A stretch of 64,000 bases of DNA from Demequina sp. NBRC 110054. Its GTDB lineage: Bacteria > Actinomycetota > Actinomycetes > Actinomycetales > Demequinaceae. The notes below the pieces were generated by a model. The model did no database searches and was not told the DNA's origin. It saw only the letters and a program-made list of their open reading frames with translations. The translations under genes were made by a program, and so were the position numbers. How positions within the stretch are numbered: position 1 is the first letter of the stretch; each line of letters begins with the position of its first letter. Shown in pieces: positions 45,987 to 57,481 of the stretch. Location: assembly GCF_002090115.1 (NCBI RefSeq), contig NZ_BBRK01000005.1, positions 186,001 through 250,000 of the forward strand, read 5' to 3'.

Positions 45987-48287
45987 TCAGATGGTGAGCT
46001 CGGGGTGCAGGCGGGCGATCGTCCACACCTTCTGACGGCTGGCGGCGAAAGCGCTGACAGCGATCGAGACCACCAGCAGGCCCACCATATAGGCGAGAGC
46101 CGCCCAGAAGCGCGCGTCGATGCCACCGCCGATAAGCGCGCGCAAGCCGTCGACGACGTAGGACGCAGGCATGTACGGGTGCAGCACCTGGAAGAACTGA
46201 GGCGAGGTCTCGACCGGGTACGTGCCGCTCGACGAGGACAGCTGCAGCATGAGCAGCACGAGGCTCACGACGCGGCCGGCGGCGGAACCGAGCAGGACCA
46301 CCAGCATCTGCTGCAGGGCCATGAACGCGAGAGTGGTGAGGAGCACGAAGAGCGTCATCCCGACCAGGTGGACGGGGGTGATCCCGATGCCGATGACCAG
46401 GACGAGCATCATGATGATCGTCTGTCCCAGGCCGAGGAGCGCGGCAGGGACGAAGCCCGTGAGCACCGCCCGCAGCCCCGAGGCGCGCGTCGCGAGGAGG
46501 CGAACCGGGAGCGGCCGCAGGATGAGCCACGTGATGAGCGCTCCCACGAACGTCGCGAGGGCGATGAAGAACGGCGCGAAGCCCTCCCCGAATCCCTGCG
46601 TCTCGTTGTCTGTCGCCTCGTCGAGCACCACGGGGTCGGCGACGACGTCCGCGAGCGCGACGCCCTGCGCCGTCGTGAGGGACGGAGCCTCGTCCGCGCC
46701 CTCGCTGAGCGCGACCGCGAGGGTCGATGCGCCGTCGGCGACCTCCTCGGCGCCGTCGGCGAGGTCCGACGATCCCGCCGCGGCCTGAGTGCTCGCCTCG
46801 GCGAGTGCGGACGCGCCGTCGTCGACCTGCGTGGCGCCGTCGCTGAGATCGGTCGCCCCGGCGGCGAGCTCGTCGGCCCCGAGGTCGACCTGCGTGGCCC
46901 CGTCCGACAGATCGGCGGCGCCATCGGCCAGGCTCACGGCTCCGGACGTGAGCGTCGCGGCTCCCTCGTCCACCTGGGCCGCACCCTCGGCCAGGTCTGA
47001 CGTGCCTGAGGCCAGCGCGGTCGCGCCGTCGCTCGCATCGTCGAGCCCCGCCGAGAGCGCATCCGCGCCTGCGGCGAGCTGCGCGATCGCGTCCACGAGC
47101 GAGGGGCTGTCCGCATCGACGGTCTCGGTGACCGTCGCGTTCAGCTGCTCGGTGCCGTCGGCGAGCGCGGATGCGCCCGCCGCGATCGCGGACAGGCTCG
47201 TGCCTGAGGAGGCGAGCGTCGCGTCGAGCTGAGCGAGGGTCATCGTCGGATACGCGGCGGCGAGCTGGGCGACCGCCGAGGCCCCCGTCGAGAGCTGCGC
47301 GGCACCGTCGGAGAGGTCACCGGTCGCGGCTGCGAGCGTCGGTGCCTCGGCGTCGAGCGTGGCAAGGCCCGCGGCGAGCGTGGCCGCTCCGTCGTCCAAC
47401 TCGGCGAGGCCGTCGGACAGGTCGTCCGCGCCGCCCTCGAGCGTGGTAGCTCCCGCGGCGAGGTCCTCGGTGCCGTTCTCGAGGGCGTCGGCACCGTCCG
47501 CGAGGTCGCTCGCACCCGACGCAAGGGAGCTCGCACCCTCCGACAGGGCGGCGGTGCCGTCTGCGAGGGTGTCCGCCCCGTCCGCGAGGACGACGGTCCC
47601 ACTGAAGAGGGAGGTGGTCCCAGCGGCGAGCGTCGAGCTGCCGTCTGCGAGCTCGCCGAGCCCAACGGAGAGCTCCGTGGCGCCATTCGCCAGGGCCTGC
47701 GTCCCGTCGTCCAGACCGGTCGCGCCCGCGGCGGCGTCGGACACCCCTTCCGACAGCTCCTCGACTCCTTCGATGAGCGTCAGCGCGGTCTGCGAGGAGA
47801 TGGTGTCGGAGACGGCCTCCTGGACCTGGAGCATCGCGGAGCTGCCGAGCGTCGTCGCGAGGAAGCTGTTGGTCTCGTTGTAGTGGACCTCGAGGTCGGC
47901 CGCCTCCGGGTCGTCCCCCTCGGCGGAGGCGATCTCGGCTGAGAAGTCGGCGGGGATCGTGACGGAGAAGTAGTAGGTGCCGTCAGAGACGCCCGCTGCA
48001 GCGTCGGCGGCGTCGGTCAGCACCCAGCCGAGGTCCGCCGAGTCGAGGAGGGCATCGACGACCTCATCGCCCGCGTCCAGCGTCGTGCCGTCGGTCAGGG
48101 TCGCCGCCTCATCCTCGTTCACGAGCGCGACGGCGACCTCATCGAGATTGTCCGTCGGAGCCCAGAAGGCCCAGAGGTAGAGCGCGCCATAGATGAGAGG
48201 AATGAAGAGCAGCACCGCGATCGCGATGCGGGGGAGCAGTCCGGAGCGGAAGCGGGACAGCTCGGTGCCGGGGGAGAGGATGGACAT
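45987..48287 (-). CDS. YhgE/Pip-type membrane protein with long repeat region
   Basis: This 766-residue protein fits the YhgE/Pip family (phage-infection-protein and ESX-associated relatives). An N-terminal helix (IAIAVLLFIPLIYGALYLW) and five to six C-terminal helices (after about residue 585) flank a large external domain. Residues roughly 190-550 are built of degenerate seven-to-eleven-residue units of the LADGAxxL / LAxGAxxLxDGA type, predicted to form an extended helical rod. The C-terminal half resembles ABC-2 permeases, and the ATPase gene lies just upstream, so the pair may export or extrude a compound. The TetR gene downstream controls it. Confidence 0.88.
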   Translation of the reverse strand: MSILSPGTELSRFRSGLLPRIAIAVLLFIPLIYGALYLWAFWAPTDNLDEVAVALVNEDEAATLTDGTTLDAGDEVVDALLDSADLGWVLTDAADAAAGVSDGTYYFSVTIPADFSAEIASAEGDDPEAADLEVHYNETNSFLATTLGSSAMLQVQEAVSDTISSQTALTLIEGVEELSEGVSDAAAGATGLDDGTQALANGATELSVGLGELADGSSTLAAGTTSLFSGTVVLADGADTLADGTAALSEGASSLASGASDLADGADALENGTEDLAAGATTLEGGADDLSDGLAELDDGAATLAAGLATLDAEAPTLAAATGDLSDGAAQLSTGASAVAQLAAAYPTMTLAQLDATLASSGTSLSAIAAGASALADGTEQLNATVTETVDADSPSLVDAIAQLAAGADALSAGLDDASDGATALASGTSDLAEGAAQVDEGAATLTSGAVSLADGAADLSDGATQVDLGADELAAGATDLSDGATQVDDGASALAEASTQAAAGSSDLADGAEEVADGASTLAVALSEGADEAPSLTTAQGVALADVVADPVVLDEATDNETQGFGEGFAPFFIALATFVGALITWLILRPLPVRLLATRASGLRAVLTGFVPAALLGLGQTIIMMLVLVIGIGITPVHLVGMTLFVLLTTLAFMALQQMLVVLLGSAAGRVVSLVLLMLQLSSSSGTYPVETSPQFFQVLHPYMPASYVVDGLRALIGGGIDARFWAALAYMVGLLVVSIAVSAFAASRQKVWTIARLHPELTI

Positions 48288-49171: not shown

Positions 49172-49807
49172 CTAGGAGTTCAACCCGGCGATGAAGTCCC
49201 GGACGTTGTCCAGGACCCGATCGTCGATGCCGTGCCCGAGCCGGTCATGGAGGCGGATGGTCGCGGCCGTGTGTGTGGGCAGCCAGCGCTCCATTCGCGC
49301 GATCTCGGCCGGCGGGATGACCGTGTCCGAGTCGCCATGCGCCCAGAGCACAGGAGGCCGCAGGGCAGCGAGCCGCTCATCGGCGGCCCCCGGCACGTCG
49401 GCGACGAAGCCCGACAGCACGATCGCGCCGGCGAGCCGCTCGGGGCGCGTGCGCAGGAGCTGGAGTGCCATCAGGCCGCCCTGAGAGAAGCCGAGGGGGA
49501 GCAGCGGCATCCCGTCGGGTACGTGCGAGTCGATCCAGCCCCAGAGGTCGTGGGTCGCGGACTCGACCGATTCAGGGCTGTAGGCCAGCGTCGGAGGCTG
49601 GAGCGGGAACCATGCCGCCCCTCCGAACCCCATCTCGAGCGGGGCGCGCACCGAGGCCCAGGCAAGTCCGCGCGGGAGCAGCGGCGCGAGTCCGGCCAGG
49701 TCCTGCTCATTCGAGCCGAAGCCGTGCAGCAGCAGGAGCGTGGGCCCCGCAGAGTCGTCCGAGCCGGACGGCCACTCGGGTGAGGTCACGGACACGAGGC
49801 TTGTCAT
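49172..49807 (-). CDS. Carboxylesterase/phospholipase-type alpha/beta hydrolase
   Basis: This 211-residue serine hydrolase matches the small carboxylesterase/acyl-protein-thioesterase-like family: LLLLHGFGSNEQDL oxyanion region, nucleophile Ser in GFSQGGLMAL, Asp in HGDSDTVIPP and His in RLGHGIDD. It is cytoplasmic with no signal. The ATG at 49807 is preceded by GATACT 6 nt upstream and no clear ribosome site. It is divergent from a HAD phosphatase (54 bp gap). Substrate is not predictable beyond short acyl esters. The 148 bp between its stop and the ABC ATPase start hold the TetR palindrome and nothing else clear. Confidence 0.88.
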   Translation of the reverse strand: MTSLVSVTSPEWPSGSDDSAGPTLLLLHGFGSNEQDLAGLAPLLPRGLAWASVRAPLEMGFGGAAWFPLQPPTLAYSPESVESATHDLWGWIDSHVPDGMPLLPLGFSQGGLMALQLLRTRPERLAGAIVLSGFVADVPGAADERLAALRPPVLWAHGDSDTVIPPAEIARMERWLPTHTAATIRLHDRLGHGIDDRVLDNVRDFIAGLNS

Positions 49808-51404: not shown

Positions 51405-52058
51405 TCAGGACACGGCCTGCGTCAGGTTCTCCTGCTGGTACTCGTAGGTCTCGGTGAGCGCACGATAGACACCCGTCGCCGCCTCCTCGAAAAGCGCCAC
51501 GGGGTTCTGCGAGGTGTCCTTGAGGTACTCCTGCTCAGCCGAGTAGAGGCACGAGAAGGTCGCGCCCGAGATCGCGCCCACGACGAGTCGCGAGCAGTCG
51601 CGGCCGGCGCGCTCCTCGCGGCGCATCAGCGCGAGCGTCGCGAGCTCGACCGTGCGACGGCGGCGGTAGTTGCGCGCCGCGTCGAGTCGAGGCGACTCGG
51701 AGATCATCCGGACCAGACTCGACTGCGAGGCCTGCTCGATCGGGTCGGCGAGGAAGCGCTCCACGATGCGGAACGACTCGCTGAGCGCGAGCTGCATCGG
51801 CAGGTCCGCGGGTGCGTTCTCGATCGACTCGACGATCTGGTCGCCCAGCTCGTCGTAGAAGTGCAGAAGGACGGCGTCCTTCGTCTCGAAGTGGCGGAAG
51901 AAGGTGCGCCGGGAGACCCCCGCACGCTCCGCGATCATCTCGATGGTGGTGTCGTCGTAGCCATTCTCGGCGACGAGCGACCTTGCTGCTGCGGCGAGTG
52001 CCCCGCTCACACGACGACGTGCGGCTTCTCTGGCACCCAAAGGACGTTCTTCAGTCAT
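51405..52058 (-). CDS. TetR-family regulator at the end of the SCP2/aminotransferase locus
   Basis: This 217-residue TetR protein has RRRVSGALAAAARSLVAENGYDDTTIEMIAERAGVSRRTFFRHFETKDAVLLHF, with the helix-turn-helix near residues 36-65. The ATG at 52058 lacks a ribosome site; TACACT ends 7 nt upstream, so a leaderless start is likely, and an AGTGT-N5-ACACT repeat overlaps it, suggesting autoregulation. It follows the MFS gene by 55 bp on the same strand, so it may regulate the exporter. The C-terminal ligand domain gives no clue to the effector. Confidence 0.88.
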   Translation of the reverse strand: MTEERPLGAREAARRRVSGALAAAARSLVAENGYDDTTIEMIAERAGVSRRTFFRHFETKDAVLLHFYDELGDQIVESIENAPADLPMQLALSESFRIVERFLADPIEQASQSSLVRMISESPRLDAARNYRRRRTVELATLALMRREERAGRDCSRLVVGAISGATFSCLYSAEQEYLKDTSQNPVALFEEAATGVYRALTETYEYQQENLTQAVS

Positions 52059-52113: not shown

Positions 52114-53370
52114 TCAGTCGAGAGTCGCCTCGAGTGCCGCCGCATCAGCGTCGTCTACTCCTACGATGACCGGTGCGGAGGATGCCCTGAAGCGGGGGAC
52201 CACCGCGAGCACCGGGATCAGCAGGACGGCCGCTACCAGGAGAGACGGTCCGTAGCCGACGGACGCGGCGACGAGCCCAGGGACCACCGCGCCGATGACC
52301 GAGCCCGGATAGGTGAACAGGTTCACGCGAGCGACGATCTCGTCCGATCGACTCGGTTCGATATCCCCGGCTGCGGAATAGGCGAGCGGGACGAGCGCGC
52401 CGACGCCGAACCCTGCGAGCGCGATGCCGAGGAAGACCATGCCCGTCGTCGGCAGCAGCGCCATGACCGCGAGTCCCGAGGCGCCCACGACAGCCGTCAC
52501 CGCCGCGAGCGGCGCGCGTCCCCAGCGACGCACCACGAAGTCGGACCCGAGCCGGCTCGCGAGCGTCGTGACCTGGTACGTGCCGTAGCCCAGCGGAGCG
52601 ATCGTGAACGCGAGGCCCAGCACCGCGACCGAGCCGGTCACCCCGAGCTCGTCCTGGAGGTACAGCGTGGTCCACGTGCTCAGGGTCGAGTCGGCGGTGA
52701 ACGCCGCGAAGACGACGAAGCCCACGAGCATGAGCCCGAGCGTCGGAATCGGCGCCCGGCCCGCCTTCGCCTCGGGCGTGGTGGCTCGCTCCTCCTTGGT
52801 CCTGTCGAAGATCCTCAGGCCGAGGAACGCCACCGCGGCGGCGATCGCCGCCGCCACGCCTAGCGCGAGCCCGGCCCCGAGCGACGATCCCGAGGCCCCC
52901 GACATCAGCACCGCCCCCACGGCGGAGGCCGCGGTCGCGGTCGCGAAGAACGAGCCCATGACGGAGCGACCGATGCGCCTCTGCACGAGCACCGCCTGCA
53001 TCGCGGCCGACGCGTCCACGCCTCCCAGCCCGAGGCCGTACACCCCGAAGAAGGCCCAGAACAGGGGGAAGGGCACCGGGAGCAGCACCACCACGAGCGC
53101 GACGGCCTGCGTCGCGAGCGCCACGATCAGCGAGGCGCGCGATCCCCAGCGCACCGAGATGCGATCCGCGAGCACCGAGCCGGCCGCGGCGCCGACGACC
53201 ACCGTGAGCGTGATGAGGGACACGATGTCCTCCGAAATGCCGTACCTGGCTCGGAAGAACGGCAGCGCGGTCACGACAGTCGCGTAGCTGAGGCCCTGCG
53301 CGATGTAGGCCGCGGTGACGCCGAGGCGCTCCGTGCCCTGAGAGACGGGGGAGGGGGCGAGGCTGGTCAA
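52114..53370 (-). CDS. MFS transporter
   Basis: This 418-residue transporter has about twelve hydrophobic helices starting GVTAAYIAQGLSYATVVTALPFF, with RISVRWGSRASLIV after helix 2 as the motif-A position. The start is a TTG at 53370 preceded by AAGGAG; an upstream in-frame extension would overlap the aminotransferase and is rejected. It lies 28 bp after the aminotransferase stop in the SDR-TetR-SCP2-aminotransferase operon, so it could export that pathway's product or import its substrate. The C-terminus ends in an acidic tail. The substrate is unknown. Confidence 0.85.
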   Translation of the reverse strand: MTSLAPSPVSQGTERLGVTAAYIAQGLSYATVVTALPFFRARYGISEDIVSLITLTVVVGAAAGSVLADRISVRWGSRASLIVALATQAVALVVVLLPVPFPLFWAFFGVYGLGLGGVDASAAMQAVLVQRRIGRSVMGSFFATATAASAVGAVLMSGASGSSLGAGLALGVAAAIAAAVAFLGLRIFDRTKEERATTPEAKAGRAPIPTLGLMLVGFVVFAAFTADSTLSTWTTLYLQDELGVTGSVAVLGLAFTIAPLGYGTYQVTTLASRLGSDFVVRRWGRAPLAAVTAVVGASGLAVMALLPTTGMVFLGIALAGFGVGALVPLAYSAAGDIEPSRSDEIVARVNLFTYPGSVIGAVVPGLVAASVGYGPSLLVAAVLLIPVLAVVPRFRASSAPVIVGVDDADAAALEATLD

Positions 53371-53398
53371 GGGGACTCCTTCGCAGACGGTGCGGCGG

Positions 53399-54664
53399 TC
53401 AGCTGTGGCGAGCGGAGACGATGCGGAAGGCTTCGTCGGCGATCTCGATCGTGCGGTCGACGTCGGCGTCGGTGAGCGACGCGTTGAGGAAGTGGTTGTG
53501 GTGCGAGGTGATCCACAGTCCCCGCTGCACGCACTCGGCGACCCACTCCTGATGCATGAGCAGCGAGTCGTCGTCGGCAAGGCGGAGGTAGAACAGCGCA
53601 GGCTCGCCCGATGCGACCAGGTTCAGCCCGTGGTCGGCAGCGGCAGCGACGAGCCCGCGCGTGACCTTCTCGCCTTGGCGGCGGAACAGCGCGGGGGCGT
53701 CGAGCTCCTTGAGCTTCGTGATCGTCGCGATCGACGCCGCGAACGGGACCGCGCTCATCCAGTACGACCCGGTGTAGGTGAGCGACGCCACGGACTCCTT
53801 GAACTCATCCTTGCCGCACAGCGCCGACAGGTTGTAGCCGTTGCCGATCGCCTTGCAGAAGCAGATGAGATCCGCCTCGATGCCGTAGTGGTGGTCGGAC
53901 CCGGCGAGGTCCAAGCGCCAGCCCGCGCGCACATCGTCCATGATGAGGACGATGCCGTGCTTGTCGCACAGATCGCGCACACCCTGCCAGTAGCCCGGGG
54001 CGGGGAGCTGGTTGTCGATGAAGTTGCCGTGCATGTAAGGGGTCGAGATGAACGCGGCGATTTCGCCCTCGTGCTTCACGAACATCTCCTCGAGCGCGAC
54101 CAGGTCGTTCCAGGGCACGTAGAGGTTGTGCGCGACGTCTTCCTCGATAACACCGGGATAGTCGAGTTTCTGGGTCCACGGAGCGACGCCGTGGTAGTAG
54201 CCCTTGACGAAGACGATCTTCTTGCGGCGGGTGTGCGCACGCGCGGTCATCATCGCGAGCGTCGTGGTGTCGCCGCCGTTCTTCGCGAAGAACGCCCAGT
54301 CGGCAGAGGCGACCGTGTCGACGAGGAGCTCGGCCAGGTCCACCATCACGGTGGAGGGCAGGGTCACCACATCCTCGATCTTTGCCTGCGCCGCGGCGGC
54401 CGCGTCGACGTCCGGATCCGCGTAGCCCAGCACGTTCGGGCCGTACGCACACATGTAGTCGAGGTACTCGTTGCCGTCGACGTCCCAGAAGCGCGAGCCC
54501 TCGGCCCGCGACGAGAAGCGCGGGAAGGCGCCGTTCGGGATAAAGCAGCCCTCGGACGGTCCGAGGTGGCCGGGAACCCCGGCGGGGATCACCTTGGCGG
54601 CGCGGTCGAAGGCCTCGAACGACTTGGTGTAGGTGTAAGGCGTGGTGGCGGGAGTGGTCGTCAT
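53399..54664 (-). CDS. Class III (GSA-aminomutase-like) aminotransferase
   Basis: This 421-residue PLP enzyme resembles glutamate-1-semialdehyde aminomutase-type aminotransferases. It has PGVPGHLGPS-like N-terminal substrate loop, RFWDVDGNEYLDYMCAYGPNVLGY, FFAKNGGDTTTLAMMTAR, KGYYHGVAPWT, and the PLP Lys in LICFCKAIGNGYN. The usual DEVQTG acid motif is DDVRAG. It is not the chromosomal HemL, judged by the missing SGTEA block and by context. Its stop lies 28 bp before the MFS gene and its start 2 bp after the SCP2-like gene stop, so it is in one operon. It likely transaminates an aldehyde or ketone made by the SDR; that is inference. Confidence 0.86.
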   Translation of the reverse strand: MTTTPATTPYTYTKSFEAFDRAAKVIPAGVPGHLGPSEGCFIPNGAFPRFSSRAEGSRFWDVDGNEYLDYMCAYGPNVLGYADPDVDAAAAAQAKIEDVVTLPSTVMVDLAELLVDTVASADWAFFAKNGGDTTTLAMMTARAHTRRKKIVFVKGYYHGVAPWTQKLDYPGVIEEDVAHNLYVPWNDLVALEEMFVKHEGEIAAFISTPYMHGNFIDNQLPAPGYWQGVRDLCDKHGIVLIMDDVRAGWRLDLAGSDHHYGIEADLICFCKAIGNGYNLSALCGKDEFKESVASLTYTGSYWMSAVPFAASIATITKLKELDAPALFRRQGEKVTRGLVAAAADHGLNLVASGEPALFYLRLADDDSLLMHQEWVAECVQRGLWITSHHNHFLNASLTDADVDRTIEIADEAFRIVSARHS

Positions 54665-54666
54665 GT

Positions 54667-55443
54667 TCAGTCTCCGAGGTAGTGGCCGACGCGGTCGAGG
54701 ATGCGGCTGACGTTGTCGAGCATCGGGATGAACCCACGCATGCCGAGCGTCCCGTCGCAGATGGAGCCGAGCGCGGAGGCTCGGCCGGACAGCACGTCTC
54801 CCGCCACGTCGAGGTCGGCGAAGCGCAGCGCGGCGCGCGCGGGAGCCGACGCTTCTCCGGGCACGAAGGTGAACACGCTGTCCGCGACATGGAGCCGCAG
54901 GTCGATGTCGTCTCCCACCTCGAGCGCGACCTGGCCGTCCGGAACCATCGACGCGGAGAACTGCCCCGAGCGATCTTCATTGGCGACCTGGGCGATCGCT
55001 GCGGCTGCGACGTTCAGCGTCATGAGCGTCGACGTCTTCTTGAAGGCCGGATCGGCGAGATCCTCCTCCGACGGCCGCAGGTACGTGCCGAGCAGGTCGG
55101 CGAGCGTCGAGAACGGCCCGGTGAGGAACTTGAGGCCCGCGGGCGAGGCGACCGGCAGGGGCTGCGCCTCGCCGTCCACCATCCGGTTGAGATGCCGGGG
55201 CGAAGTGAACACGAGCGTGACCTTCCGTGCACCCTCCTGTGCGCCGGGCACGACCGTGTCGGTCGTGAACGTGTAGGACGCATCCGCGACACCCGGAGCC
55301 TTGAGGACCACGGTCGTCGGCCGGTCGAGTCCCGCGAGGGCCTCCTTCGCCTCGGGCACCCGTGCGACCAGCACGGGAAGCGCGCCTAGCACCGCGTGCG
55401 CGTTGATGTGCGCGGTCACCCGCGGATTGAGATCGGTGAGCAA
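54667..55443 (-). CDS. Unknown protein, tandem SCP2-like
   Basis: This 258-residue protein has no firm family that I can name. Two stretches resemble SCP2 sterol-carrier-type lipid-binding folds: VTLVFTSPRHLNRMVDGEAQPLPV in the first half, and ALRFADLDVAGDVLSGRASALGSI plus FIPMLDNVSRILDRVGHYLG in the second. No membrane segment or signal is seen, so it is probably cytoplasmic. It sits 10 bp from the TetR gene and 2 bp from the aminotransferase, in an operon with an SDR. A carrier or presenter of a hydrophobic substrate would fit, but this rests on faint resemblance. Confidence 0.75.
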   Translation of the reverse strand: MLTDLNPRVTAHINAHAVLGALPVLVARVPEAKEALAGLDRPTTVVLKAPGVADASYTFTTDTVVPGAQEGARKVTLVFTSPRHLNRMVDGEAQPLPVASPAGLKFLTGPFSTLADLLGTYLRPSEEDLADPAFKKTSTLMTLNVAAAAIAQVANEDRSGQFSASMVPDGQVALEVGDDIDLRLHVADSVFTFVPGEASAPARAALRFADLDVAGDVLSGRASALGSICDGTLGMRGFIPMLDNVSRILDRVGHYLGD

Positions 55444-55453
55444 CGTCTACTCC

Positions 55454-56068
55454 TTAGTCCTGAGTCACGGGGACGGATTGCGCGGCGAGGGCATGGGCGT
55501 GGAAGCGTGCGGTCGCGAGGGCCGCCGCGTCGTCGTGGTCGGCGAGCCATGTCGTCGTGATGCCGTCGAGCATCGAGACGGTGTGCCGGGCGAGCTGGTC
55601 CACGGGGACCAGCCAGCTCGCGCCCGCAGACTCCGCGGCCTGGGAGAGCAGCGCGCCGACCAGCTCGTAGGACGGCGCATAGCGCCCCGGCGCCGGTGGC
55701 GCGTGCAGCCGGGCGCGCGACGCGTGGAGCATGAGCTCGACGAAGGCGAGCTCGTGTCCCGGGTGGGCCGTGAGAAGAGCGACGTAGCGCTCCATCCCGG
55801 CGACGAGCAGCTCGGTGAGGTCCGGTGCGGGGCCGCCCTCAGCGAGCCCCTGCTCCGCGGCGAGCCGCTCGTTCGCCGTCACCTCGTCGGCCGCCGCCGC
55901 GAGGAGGTCCTCGACGTTCTCGAACGCGTAGTGCAGGGCACCGAGAGGCATGTCCGCCTCCTTGACGATGCGCCGCGCGGTGGCGCCGGCGATGCCGTCG
56001 CGCTCGATGACGGTAAGTGTCGCGGCGATCAGCAGCCGGCGCCGCTCCTCCAGTGGGATGCGTGCCAT
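55454..56068 (-). CDS. TetR-family regulator of the SDR operon
   Basis: This 204-residue TetR protein begins RIPLEERRRLLIAATLTVIERDGIAGATARRIVKEADMPLGALHYAFENVEDLLAAA, with the helix-turn-helix near residues 28-52, of the type found in BetI/AcrR-like regulators. It follows the SDR gene by 3 bp and precedes the SCP2-like gene by 10 bp. It most likely binds TTGGACGAACGTCCAA ahead of the SDR gene. The large Ala-rich C-terminal domain is uninformative. Confidence 0.9.
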   Translation of the reverse strand: MARIPLEERRRLLIAATLTVIERDGIAGATARRIVKEADMPLGALHYAFENVEDLLAAAADEVTANERLAAEQGLAEGGPAPDLTELLVAGMERYVALLTAHPGHELAFVELMLHASRARLHAPPAPGRYAPSYELVGALLSQAAESAGASWLVPVDQLARHTVSMLDGITTTWLADHDDAAALATARFHAHALAAQSVPVTQD

Positions 56069-56071
56069 GGA

Positions 56072-56854
56072 TCAGCCCTTCGTGAGTCCAGCGGTGATGG
56101 CAAGAGTGGCGCGCGTCGGAACGAGGCGGGGCAGATGGGCCTGGACCGCGTTGCGCCAGCCGACCACCCGCGTGGGGCCCGCGCCCTGCTTCGTGACCGC
56201 GTCGAAAGCGGCGTCGACGACCTCCTCGATCGAGACCATCTGCCCCACGTTGAACCGCTCGGAGCCGGCGGCGGAGAAGAACTCGGTGCGGGAGGGTCCG
56301 GGGCAGAGCGCGAGGATCCGCGCGCCCGAGCCCTTCGCCTCCTGCCAGAGCGCCTCCGTGAGGGTGCGCACGTAGGCCTTCGAGGCCGCGTAGAGCGCGA
56401 TCTGAGGGATGGGCTGGTAGGACGCCGTGCTCGCGACGTTGATGAGCAGGCCGTGACCGGAGTTGAGGATCGCGGGAAGCATGCGCAGCGTCAGGTCGGT
56501 GAGCGCGGCCACGTTGACCTGGACCAGGTCGGTGACGCGCTGGGGGTCGGACTCGGCGAACGGTCCATCGATCCCGAACCCCGCGCAGTTCACGAGTCCA
56601 TCGGGCGACAGCCCGCGCCTGTCGAGCTGGGTCATGAGCGCGTCGGCTGCGCCCGGAGCCGCCAGGTCGATGGGGACGACGTGTGCGGCGACCCCGCTCG
56701 ACTCCGTCAGCTCCTTGGCGAGCTCCTCGAGCCGCGAGGCACGGCGGGCCACGAGGACGACATCCGCTCCCTTGCGGGCGAAGCGCCGCGCGAACTCGGC
56801 GCCGAATCCCGAGCTGGCACCCGTGATGACGACGCAGGACGGAGCAGGGTTCAT
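56072..56854 (-). CDS. Short-chain dehydrogenase/reductase
   Basis: This 260-residue SDR has the NADP site ITGASSGFGAEFARRFA with a basic Arg pair after strand 2 (VLVARRASRLEEL), NCAGFGIDGPF, the catalytic set ASTASYQPIPQIALYAASKAYV, and a C-terminal PRLVPTRATLAITAGLTKG tail seen in the DltE/YqjQ subgroup that acts on hydrophobic substrates. The ATG at 56854 is preceded by GAGAGG; in-frame extension to 57220 is intergenic. It heads the operon, 24 bp downstream of a 16-bp inverted repeat. I infer that it interconverts an alcohol and a carbonyl for the aminotransferase. Confidence 0.87.
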   Translation of the reverse strand: MNPAPSCVVITGASSGFGAEFARRFARKGADVVLVARRASRLEELAKELTESSGVAAHVVPIDLAAPGAADALMTQLDRRGLSPDGLVNCAGFGIDGPFAESDPQRVTDLVQVNVAALTDLTLRMLPAILNSGHGLLINVASTASYQPIPQIALYAASKAYVRTLTEALWQEAKGSGARILALCPGPSRTEFFSAAGSERFNVGQMVSIEEVVDAAFDAVTKQGAGPTRVVGWRNAVQAHLPRLVPTRATLAITAGLTKG

Positions 56855-56878
56855 GACCAAGACCTCTCGTGAATTCAG

Positions 56879-56894
56879 TTGGACGAACGTCCAA
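56879..56894. promoter_or_regulatory. Operator palindrome before the SDR operon
   Basis: TTGGACGAACGTCCAA has perfect 7-bp arms around two bases, 24 bp upstream of the SDR start. The sequence and symmetry suit a TetR dimer, presumably the second gene of the operon. Confidence 0.7.
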
Positions 56895-57052: not shown

Positions 57053-57481
57053 ATGATCACCAGCAAGGCGACCACTCAGTGGCAGGGTGGACTGAGCGAC
57101 GGCAAGGGACGCACCGGAGCGGAGTCCGGCGTCTTCTCCGACCTGCCCGTCGACTGGCGTCAGCGCTCGACCGGAGAGGGGGCCTCGACGACGCCGGAGG
57201 AGCTGCTCGCCGCGGCGCACTCCTCATGCTTCGCGATGGCGCTCTCGCACGCCCTCGAGCAGAACGGCACGCCTCCGGTCGAGATGCGTACGGACGCACG
57301 CGTGCAGTTCGTGCCGGGCGAGGGCATCACGTGGAGCATGCTCACGGTGCACGCACACGTTCCCGGGCTGGATCCGCTCGCCTTCAGCGAGATCGCGGAG
57401 AAGGCCAAGGACGAATGCCCGATGTCGCAGGCGCTCGCAGGCACCGAGGTCAGTCTCGAGAGCGCGACTCTTCAGGAGTGA
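57053..57481 (+). CDS. OsmC-family peroxiredoxin
   Basis: This 142-residue protein matches OsmC/Ohr-type organic-hydroperoxide reductases. The two reactive Cys are present: in AAHSSCFAMAL (near residue 62) and in KDECPMSQAL (near residue 122), with the STTPEELLAAAHS approach typical of OsmC over Ohr. It removes organic peroxides using dihydrolipoyl or similar thiols. AGGAGG precedes the ATG. Its last 32 bp overlap the convergent LysR gene. The gene stands alone between an upstream divergent SDR operon and LysR. Confidence 0.93.
   Translation: MITSKATTQWQGGLSDGKGRTGAESGVFSDLPVDWRQRSTGEGASTTPEELLAAAHSSCFAMALSHALEQNGTPPVEMRTDARVQFVPGEGITWSMLTVHAHVPGLDPLAFSEIAEKAKDECPMSQALAGTEVSLESATLQE

Follow-up and report, generated by a model that had tools for sequence, protein, structure and literature searches.

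To our knowledge, the C–C bond-forming step in the synthesis of sphingoid bases is always catalysed by one type of enzyme, the serine palmitoyltransferase (SPT)-type alpha-oxoamine synthases. Fumonisins resemble two such bases, sphingosine and sphinganine (PMC9858248, in the passage concerned), and the aminotransferase FumI deaminates hydrolysed fumonisin B1 at C2, with pyruvate as the amino acceptor (PMC2933618, likewise). Here we describe a five-gene operon at positions 52114 to 56894 of a 64,000-nucleotide stretch of Demequina sp. NBRC 110054 (contig NZ_BBRK01000005.1; the whole stretch is referred to as the window), which encodes a FumI-like aminotransferase next to SCPa, a tandem SCP2-fold lipid-carrier-like protein. 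Because a carrier, a FumI-like enzyme and sphingoid-pathway neighbours come together in this system, the pair of compounds that we propose is a sphingoid-type 2-amino alcohol and its 2-keto alcohol, and we lean slightly towards a substrate of this type. That the operon serves SCPa-assisted transamination of sphingoid-type 2-amino alcohols, and in Demequina does so inducibly, we regard as evenly balanced. The ORF list and Pfam confirm the layout given in a preliminary description of this DNA, with five genes on one strand in the order short-chain dehydrogenase/reductase (SDR), TetR, SCPa, aminotransferase and major facilitator superfamily (MFS) transporter, separated by 3, 10, 2 and 28 bp:

52114 to 53370, minus strand: MFS transporter; TTG start; PF07690 at 9.2e-25; present in 15 of 15 Demequina loci
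53399 to 54664, minus strand: FumI-like class III aminotransferase, 421 aa; PF00202 at 2.5e-39; DDVRAG at D242–G247; pyridoxal phosphate (PLP) lysine K270
54667 to 55443, minus strand: SCPa, tandem SCP2-fold lipid-carrier-like protein, 258 aa; TTG start; SCP2 fold from a model
55454 to 56068, minus strand: TetR-family regulator, 204 aa; PF00440 at 27.9 bits (cut-off 24); present in 15 of 15 Demequina loci
56072 to 56857, minus strand: SDR family oxidoreductase, 261 aa; ATG at 56854; PF00106 at 2.2e-43; in 10 of 15 Demequina operons
56879 to 56894, no strand: TTGGACGAACGTCCAA, probable operator of the operon's TetR, a 7-2-7 palindrome conserved at the operon head

Compared with all solved chains, the aminotransferase is closest to 6HBS, an aminopentol aminotransferase (329 bits, E 4.4e-97) that we take to be FumI, consistent with the molecule name of the structure. 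The next chain is a glutamate-1-semialdehyde (GSA) aminomutase at 162 bits (2.1e-46), and in a family-profile search 6HBS is the only chain below 1e-60. The protein passes PF00202 (135.5 bits, cut-off 30.5), K270 and D242 are invariant across seven aligned rows, and its motifs are FCK270A around the PLP lysine and DDVRAG (D242–G247), which aligns as IMDDVRAGWR with VVDDVRAGFR of 6HBS. The preliminary description had called DDVRAG an unusual acid motif; as the motif is common to FumI, it is a family signature, and the accompanying statement that the contents of the operon match no known pathway fails for the aminotransferase. In a 50-row tree the SCP-linked enzymes, together with one that lacks SCPa, form a 42-row clade (support 99/97) that stands beside a group (91/87) of FumI with five relatives from plasmids; the tree is midpoint-rooted and has several long branches. 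Plasmid relatives are 36–45% identical and number 14 records. Among them, a Novosphingobium plasmid enzyme (L046; L and G numbers denote loci and genomes of the comparison) is encoded next to a carbohydrate kinase and a class II aldolase, and Variovorax paradoxus VAI-C (L047, L048) has two similar, uncharacterised catabolic clusters in which a FumI-like aminotransferase accompanies TetR, ABC transporter, N,N-dimethylformamidase-annotated and FabG-annotated genes.

SCPa has no Pfam match (E 0.1), the SCP2 family PF02036 included, and no NCBIfam match, and a search of PDB sequences with its profile returned chance matches only (E 0.61). An AlphaFold2 model built from 14 rows (mean pLDDT 89.6) was compared with known structures. 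This revealed an SCP2 fold, with a best Z of 11.5 (rmsd 2.7 over 112 residues, mostly residues 130–258; VIA-align) and a best Foldseek E of 1.5e-4, the matches being SCP2 proteins and the SCP2 domains of alkylsulfatases. The N- and C-terminal halves have the same order of helices and strands in the model and align with each other as profiles (hhalign probability 83, E 9e-6), so by its model SCPa is a tandem SCP2-fold protein and the label 'SCP2-like' of the preliminary description is upheld at the level of fold, with no Pfam or NCBIfam family to attach it to. A second tandem SCP2 protein, SCPb, which is distantly paralogous to SCPa (probability 96, E 4e-9), is found at some of the loci outside Demequina discussed below, and its L023 copy passes the Pfam SCP2 model (22.4, cut-off 21.3).

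SCPa occurs in 15 of 44 genomes of the genus, the window's own included, in a single order mate (G067) among 99 genomes and, as a strong match, only in the window's own genome in a 396-genome sample of the phylum; a search of plasmids for SCPa gave no match. A weak match in G014 (E 2.9e-4), which would be the sixteenth of the genus, reads as unrelated sequence and was left uncounted, as was an SCPa fragment in G355 (E 8e-4). Aminotransferase matches were found in 3 of 391 genomes of the class of Oscillibacter valericigenes (E 1e-120), in 24 of 394 of its order (E 1e-100) and in 3 of 18 genomes of the family of G067 (E 1e-100), and O. valericigenes itself has the SCPa–aminotransferase pair (36% and 66% identity). 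Across Actinomycetota and Bacillota, the SCPa and aminotransferase genes are adjacent at 41 of the 42 loci that could be scored, made up of 23 of 24 genomes of the order, G811, 15 of 15 Demequina loci and both testable genomes of G067's family; the contig of G882 ends inside the aminotransferase, before any SCPa, and cannot be scored. The sole exception is G1210 (L099), where a FumI-like aminotransferase stands without SCPa and the opposite strand carries a divergent split transketolase, with, by eye, an alanine dehydrogenase and an old-yellow-enzyme-type protein nearby. In Demequina, TetR, SCPa, aminotransferase and MFS are together at every one of the 15 loci and the SDR at 10, so that the co-occurrence of the operon holds for four of its five genes within the genus and for the carrier–aminotransferase pair across phyla. 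A PfkB-family kinase gene (L005, 6840–7913, minus strand) is divergent from the pair in O. valericigenes. Recoding of the G811 aminotransferase ('2 TGA') was considered and dropped, as the core frame is open and the stops lie near the ends of the core.

Beyond Demequina, the pair is found beside genes for two enzymes that could form a sphingoid C2–C3 bond. In four genomes an SPT and an SDR abut it, in the order SPT-SDR-SCPa-aminotransferase (L083, L084) or SCPa-aminotransferase-SPT-SDR (L085, L086). The L083 SPT has as its best solved relative the SPT 3A2B (402 bits; the best chain under another name reaches 278), SPT is the best NCBIfam model for both L083 (516 bits) and L086 (536 bits; cut-off 640), and the best NCBIfam model of the L083 SDR is 3-ketodihydrosphingosine reductase (KdsR; 218 bits, cut-off 400); these identity checks cover L083 in the PDB and L083 and L086 in NCBIfam. 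Genome-wide, SPT at E below 1e-180 is present in 9 of 43 genomes, namely these four and G802, G926, G1180, G1193 and G1240. In L111 and L112 (G1180 and G1240) a YegS/BmrU-type lipid kinase gene, of which the L111 copy was scanned, lies on the same strand just before SPT-SDR and is a candidate long-chain-base or diacylglycerol kinase. In the second arrangement, SCPa-aminotransferase is followed by TkN-TkC-SCPb, where the best match of TkN and TkC is the split transketolase of Carboxydothermus. Full sets number 13 (12 Oscillospirales loci and the actinobacterium G067), while G886 and G882 show part of this row, up to the end of the contig or of the examined stretch; locus gene counts for SPT and SCPb were taken from tblastn. 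When the L023 SCPb was used as a query against ten genomes, it matched only in G067; none of the other nine has the transketolase operon. In G935 the pair stands beside a gene that looks MFS-like by eye, with TkN-TkC-SCPb on another contig; kinship of this gene to the Demequina MFS is not detectable (E 0.16).

SPT is present in none of 16 genomes with an operon-type transketolase (TkC identity of 60% or more) versus 9 of 11 SCPa–aminotransferase genomes without one (no TkC relative above 44% identity genome-wide), giving a Fisher p of 1.2e-5 that overstates independence, as the genomes are related and the pattern is partly clade structure and not 27 events. The table leaves out G1210 and includes G882, and several of its genomes are very fragmented, with contamination possible. 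On the aminotransferase tree the transketolase label requires at least three changes. G1193 belongs to a clade of 11 rows (100/100) whose other members bear the transketolase, and yet it has SPT; no transketolase was found in the 3.9 kb beyond its aminotransferase and no operon-type TkC genome-wide, which by these searches makes it an independent transketolase/SPT swap. This mutual exclusion of two enzymes that are both able to form the C2–C3 bond, together with the swap, speaks for a biosynthetic role, in which the split transketolase of Oscillospirales would build a 1,3-dihydroxy-2-ketone from a fatty aldehyde and a ketol unit, SCPa and SCPb would carry the lipid, the aminotransferase would set the 2-amino group to give a sphingoid base, and Demequina would hold a variant making an amino lipid. 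In vitro, a transketolase followed by a transaminase does yield an amino-triol (PMC5813273, in the part concerned). We nevertheless consider this role doubtful: the aminotransferase would be redundant for synthesis where SPT and a reductase are present, the Demequina operon has no transketolase, both SPT and this transketolase are missing from G486 and G811, and the exclusion itself is subject to the reservations given with the table.

The active site of the operon transketolase likewise speaks for the biosynthetic direction. All 13 operon TkC proteins have Ala or Ser in place of the Arg at the human R318 position and GQAG in place of GEDG, whereas they keep the equivalents of S345, H416 and R474; we take the Arg and the GEDG motif to serve sugar recognition. 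Arg and GEDG are both kept in the human and Carboxydothermus transketolases. Among 13 other TkC-like proteins of these genomes and two Demequina, 4 keep both (L118–L121, the 41–44% identical ones of G802, G811, G926 and G1144), 9 keep one and none lacks both. The detached operon-type TkC of G935 has Thr and GTAG, and the divergent TkC of G1210 also lacks GEDG, its Arg position falling outside the match. By these alignments, the operon transketolase has lost two sugar-recognition residues. By numbering, we take D469 of the E. coli enzyme to be the Asp of GEDG and hence the Ala of GQAG in operon TkC. In an evolution towards non-polar aldehydes D469 was changed first, and one of the stages was a non-polar aliphatic aldehyde (PMC5073344, in the part concerned); the altered site is compatible with, though not proof of, a hydrophobic, non-hydroxylated acceptor.

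The same genes may be read in reverse, as a catabolic system in which the aminotransferase deaminates sphingoid bases to 1,3-dihydroxy-2-ketones, the transketolase cleaves these, releasing a fatty aldehyde and passing a two-carbon unit to an aldehyde acceptor, and Demequina retains the first step only. A 1,3-dihydroxy-2-ketone bears the donor group of transketolase, and a TetR and an MFS suit an inducible response in Demequina. FumI also runs in the deaminating direction (PMC2933618, as above). The altered phosphate/hydroxyl site makes sugar-phosphate acceptors less likely, breakdown gives less reason to expect transketolase to exclude SPT, and placing an SPT in one gene row with the aminotransferase would be futile, so that as an account of all these loci catabolism seems to us improbable. 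Much the same standing belongs to the broader proposal that sphingoid bases are made or broken down without SPT by SCPa, a FumI-like aminotransferase, SCPb and a split transketolase whose active site is de-sugared, and that the Demequina operon is a regulated offshoot of this system; we put it forward as a speculative possibility. In the forward sense, a transketolase would join a ketol unit to a fatty aldehyde, the carriers would hold the lipid and the aminotransferase would set the amino group.

In Demequina, the head of the operon points to regulation by its TetR. A perfect repeat, TTGGACGAACGTCCAA, does lie 24 bp before the SDR ATG as reported previously, and it is a single copy in the 3.35 Mb genome. 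The window contains 17 perfect 7-2-7 inverted repeats, against a mean of 11.1 and a maximum of 18 in 30 mononucleotide shuffles, and one such repeat alone is within chance in this GC-rich DNA. We count the palindrome as real because it is conserved at the operon head and not because the repeat is perfect: TTGGACG-NN-CGTCCAA stands 28–60 bp upstream of the first operon gene at all 15 Demequina loci, with 14 of 14 positions matching in 12 and 13 of 14 in 3, preceding the SDR at 10 loci and TetR directly at the 5 loci without an SDR, while the 2-bp spacer varies freely. No second site reaching 11 of 14 positions was found within these loci. The palindrome is therefore probably the phylogenetic footprint of a TetR operator, as expected of an autoregulated operon, with TetR binding a prediction from conservation.

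SCPa-assisted transamination, the explanation that we favour, would proceed as follows. SCPa would hold a long-chain lipid and hand it to the PLP-dependent aminotransferase, which, with pyruvate/alanine or a comparable partner, would convert a sphingoid-type 2-amino alcohol to the matching 2-keto alcohol and back. In Demequina, TetR would sit on TTGGACG-NN-CGTCCAA until released by the lipid amine or its product, SCPa would sequester the lipid, the aminotransferase would remove or, less likely, install the amine, the optional SDR would reduce or oxidise a neighbouring carbonyl or alcohol, and the MFS transporter would carry substrate or product across the membrane. Because neither SPT nor this transketolase was found in the 15 Demequina genomes, and because TetR and MFS suggest an inducible response to a lipid amine, we lean to deamination and clearance there, although this direction is a tentative assignment that could well be wrong. 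The simplest reading offered previously was oxidation of a hydrophobic alcohol followed by amination of the carbonyl. Its core, a lipid carrier acting with transamination of a hydrophobic carbonyl or amine, is well supported by FumI kinship, the SCP2 fold and the SPT and transketolase neighbours, but the sequence of oxidation and amination is not specifically so: 5 of 15 Demequina operons lack the SDR, FumI deaminates with pyruvate, and at the Oscillospirales loci read an SDR is in the gene row only where SPT is also, the SDRs diverging upstream at L092 and L115 being unrelated.

The arrangement of TetR, MFS and SDR is also common in detoxification operons, and related plasmid aminotransferases occur in small-molecule catabolic clusters. 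The locus might on these grounds be an ordinary TetR–MFS detoxification operon for a hydrophobic amine or aldehyde with no sphingoid tie, its aminotransferase acting on small amino alcohols. We think this unlikely, more so than either direction of a sphingoid pathway, since it leaves unexplained both the near-invariant tandem SCP2 partner in two phyla and the SPT and 3-ketosphinganine-reductase-like neighbours.

Several results weigh against a sphingoid-type transamination. The window's clade stands beside FumI and not around it, and because it lies outside the FumI clade we call the enzyme FumI-like and not FumI. Five of the 14 plasmid records were inspected and have other neighbours (ABC transporters, dimethylformamidase-like genes, aldolases); the wider FumI-like family therefore has substrates broader than sphingoids. 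The SCP2 fold of SCPa comes from a model, and the SPT and KdsR scores are below the curated cut-offs. The Demequina SDR has no clear kinship to the SPT-linked SDRs (27–38% identity, versus 28% to an unrelated one), its best solved chain is the SDR 4BMV (127 bits), and its 25 best NCBIfam models do not include KdsR. SPT was found in 0 of 15 Demequina operon genomes (E 1e-40) and the operon-type transketolase likewise in 0 of 15, the best match being 41% identical, so that in Demequina the link to sphingoids is one of homology. Alkaline ceramidase (PF04734) was found in 0 of 44 genomes of the genus and in none of 14 control genomes either, and is uninformative.

The nearest named relatives at the locus are those of Demequina salsinemoris (aminotransferase 95% identical) and other Demequina, and base composition is even across the operon. 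No Rfam match was found at the locus, nor a promoter consensus or a terminator-like site beyond chance. An OsmC-family peroxiredoxin gene (57053–57481, plus strand) is divergent from the operon across the intergenic region that bears the palindrome and might be under the same TetR control; an OsmC relative flanks 13 of 15 Demequina loci and is absent at L025 and L026, although the upstream sequence is present. After the MFS gene lies a second TetR gene (51405–52058, minus strand), weakly MftR-like (TIGR03968 at 73.9 bits, cut-off 224.9) and detected among the 14 other Demequina loci only in L002, L003, L004 and L076. About 2.3 kb beyond the operon, the C-terminal part of a long ORF ending at 49172 (49172 to about 49820, minus strand) looks by eye like an esterase-like alpha/beta-hydrolase, and positions 45987–48287 (minus strand) encode, also by eye, a 766-residue membrane-type protein with a degenerate A/D/G/L-rich repeat run between putative membrane segments.

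A search of the open-licence literature, judged by title and the start of the abstract, gave among the matches listed no transketolase route to sphingoid bases and no description of this operon, and one for Demequina with sphingo- terms gave nothing on point among the matches listed. If correct, a natural transketolase–transaminase pair replacing SPT in Oscillospirales would change which bacteria count as sphingolipid makers or breakers. The transketolase form would then be a new route, and a candidate to test for the phytosphingosine production reported for Flavonifractor plautii in passages that name no gene (PMC11914097). Our analysis also suggests a testable function for a tandem SCP2 family unrecognised by the Pfam and NCBIfam copies used, and new candidate sphingoid/fumonisin transaminases with a carrier partner.

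Among described sphingoid systems, the bacterial SPT/KdsR entry pathway adjoins the SCPa–aminotransferase pair in the four Oscillospirales genomes, whereas SPT was not found in the 15 Demequina or the 16 transketolase-form genomes. PfSgaAB, which serves polyketide synthase-derived sphingolipids, is like the proposed route in being a non-canonical bacterial sphingoid route, but differs in still using an SPT-like alpha-oxoamine synthase, and the word transketolase is absent from that text (PMC12134224). Engineered transketolase–transaminase cascades follow the same reaction logic (PMC5813273), but they and the E. coli D469T transketolase (PMC5073344) are, in the parts concerned, man-made and act on short polar or aromatic substrates. 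SCP2 lipid-carrier domains such as those of human MFE-2, UbiJ and the alkylsulfatase C-terminal domain are like the C-terminal half of SCPa in fold; SCPa is unlike them in having two copies in one free-standing protein and no sequence-level Pfam or NCBIfam match. GSA aminomutases (HemL) belong to the superfamily of the window enzyme, whose best NCBIfam family by score is a GSAM subfamily, well under the cut-off (215.5 against 398), but the best GSAM structure reaches 162 bits against 329 for FumI, and motif and context differ. The fum cluster we take to be marked by the carboxylesterase FumD and partner genes beside the aminotransferase, and we know of no SCP2 gene in it; a Pfam scan of seven window proteins (the five operon genes, OsmC and the second TetR) found no esterase, the farther flanks being read only as ORFs. 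FumI of Sphingopyxis sp. MTA144 (PDB 6HBS/6HBV) and the window enzyme have in common the class III fold type, DDVRAG and full-length similarity. FumI acts on a long-chain 2-amino polyol (PMC2933618, in the passage concerned) and sits in a fumonisin-degrading cluster, whereas the window enzyme, for which kinship suggests a substrate of this type, belongs to a separate, SCP-linked neighbouring clade.

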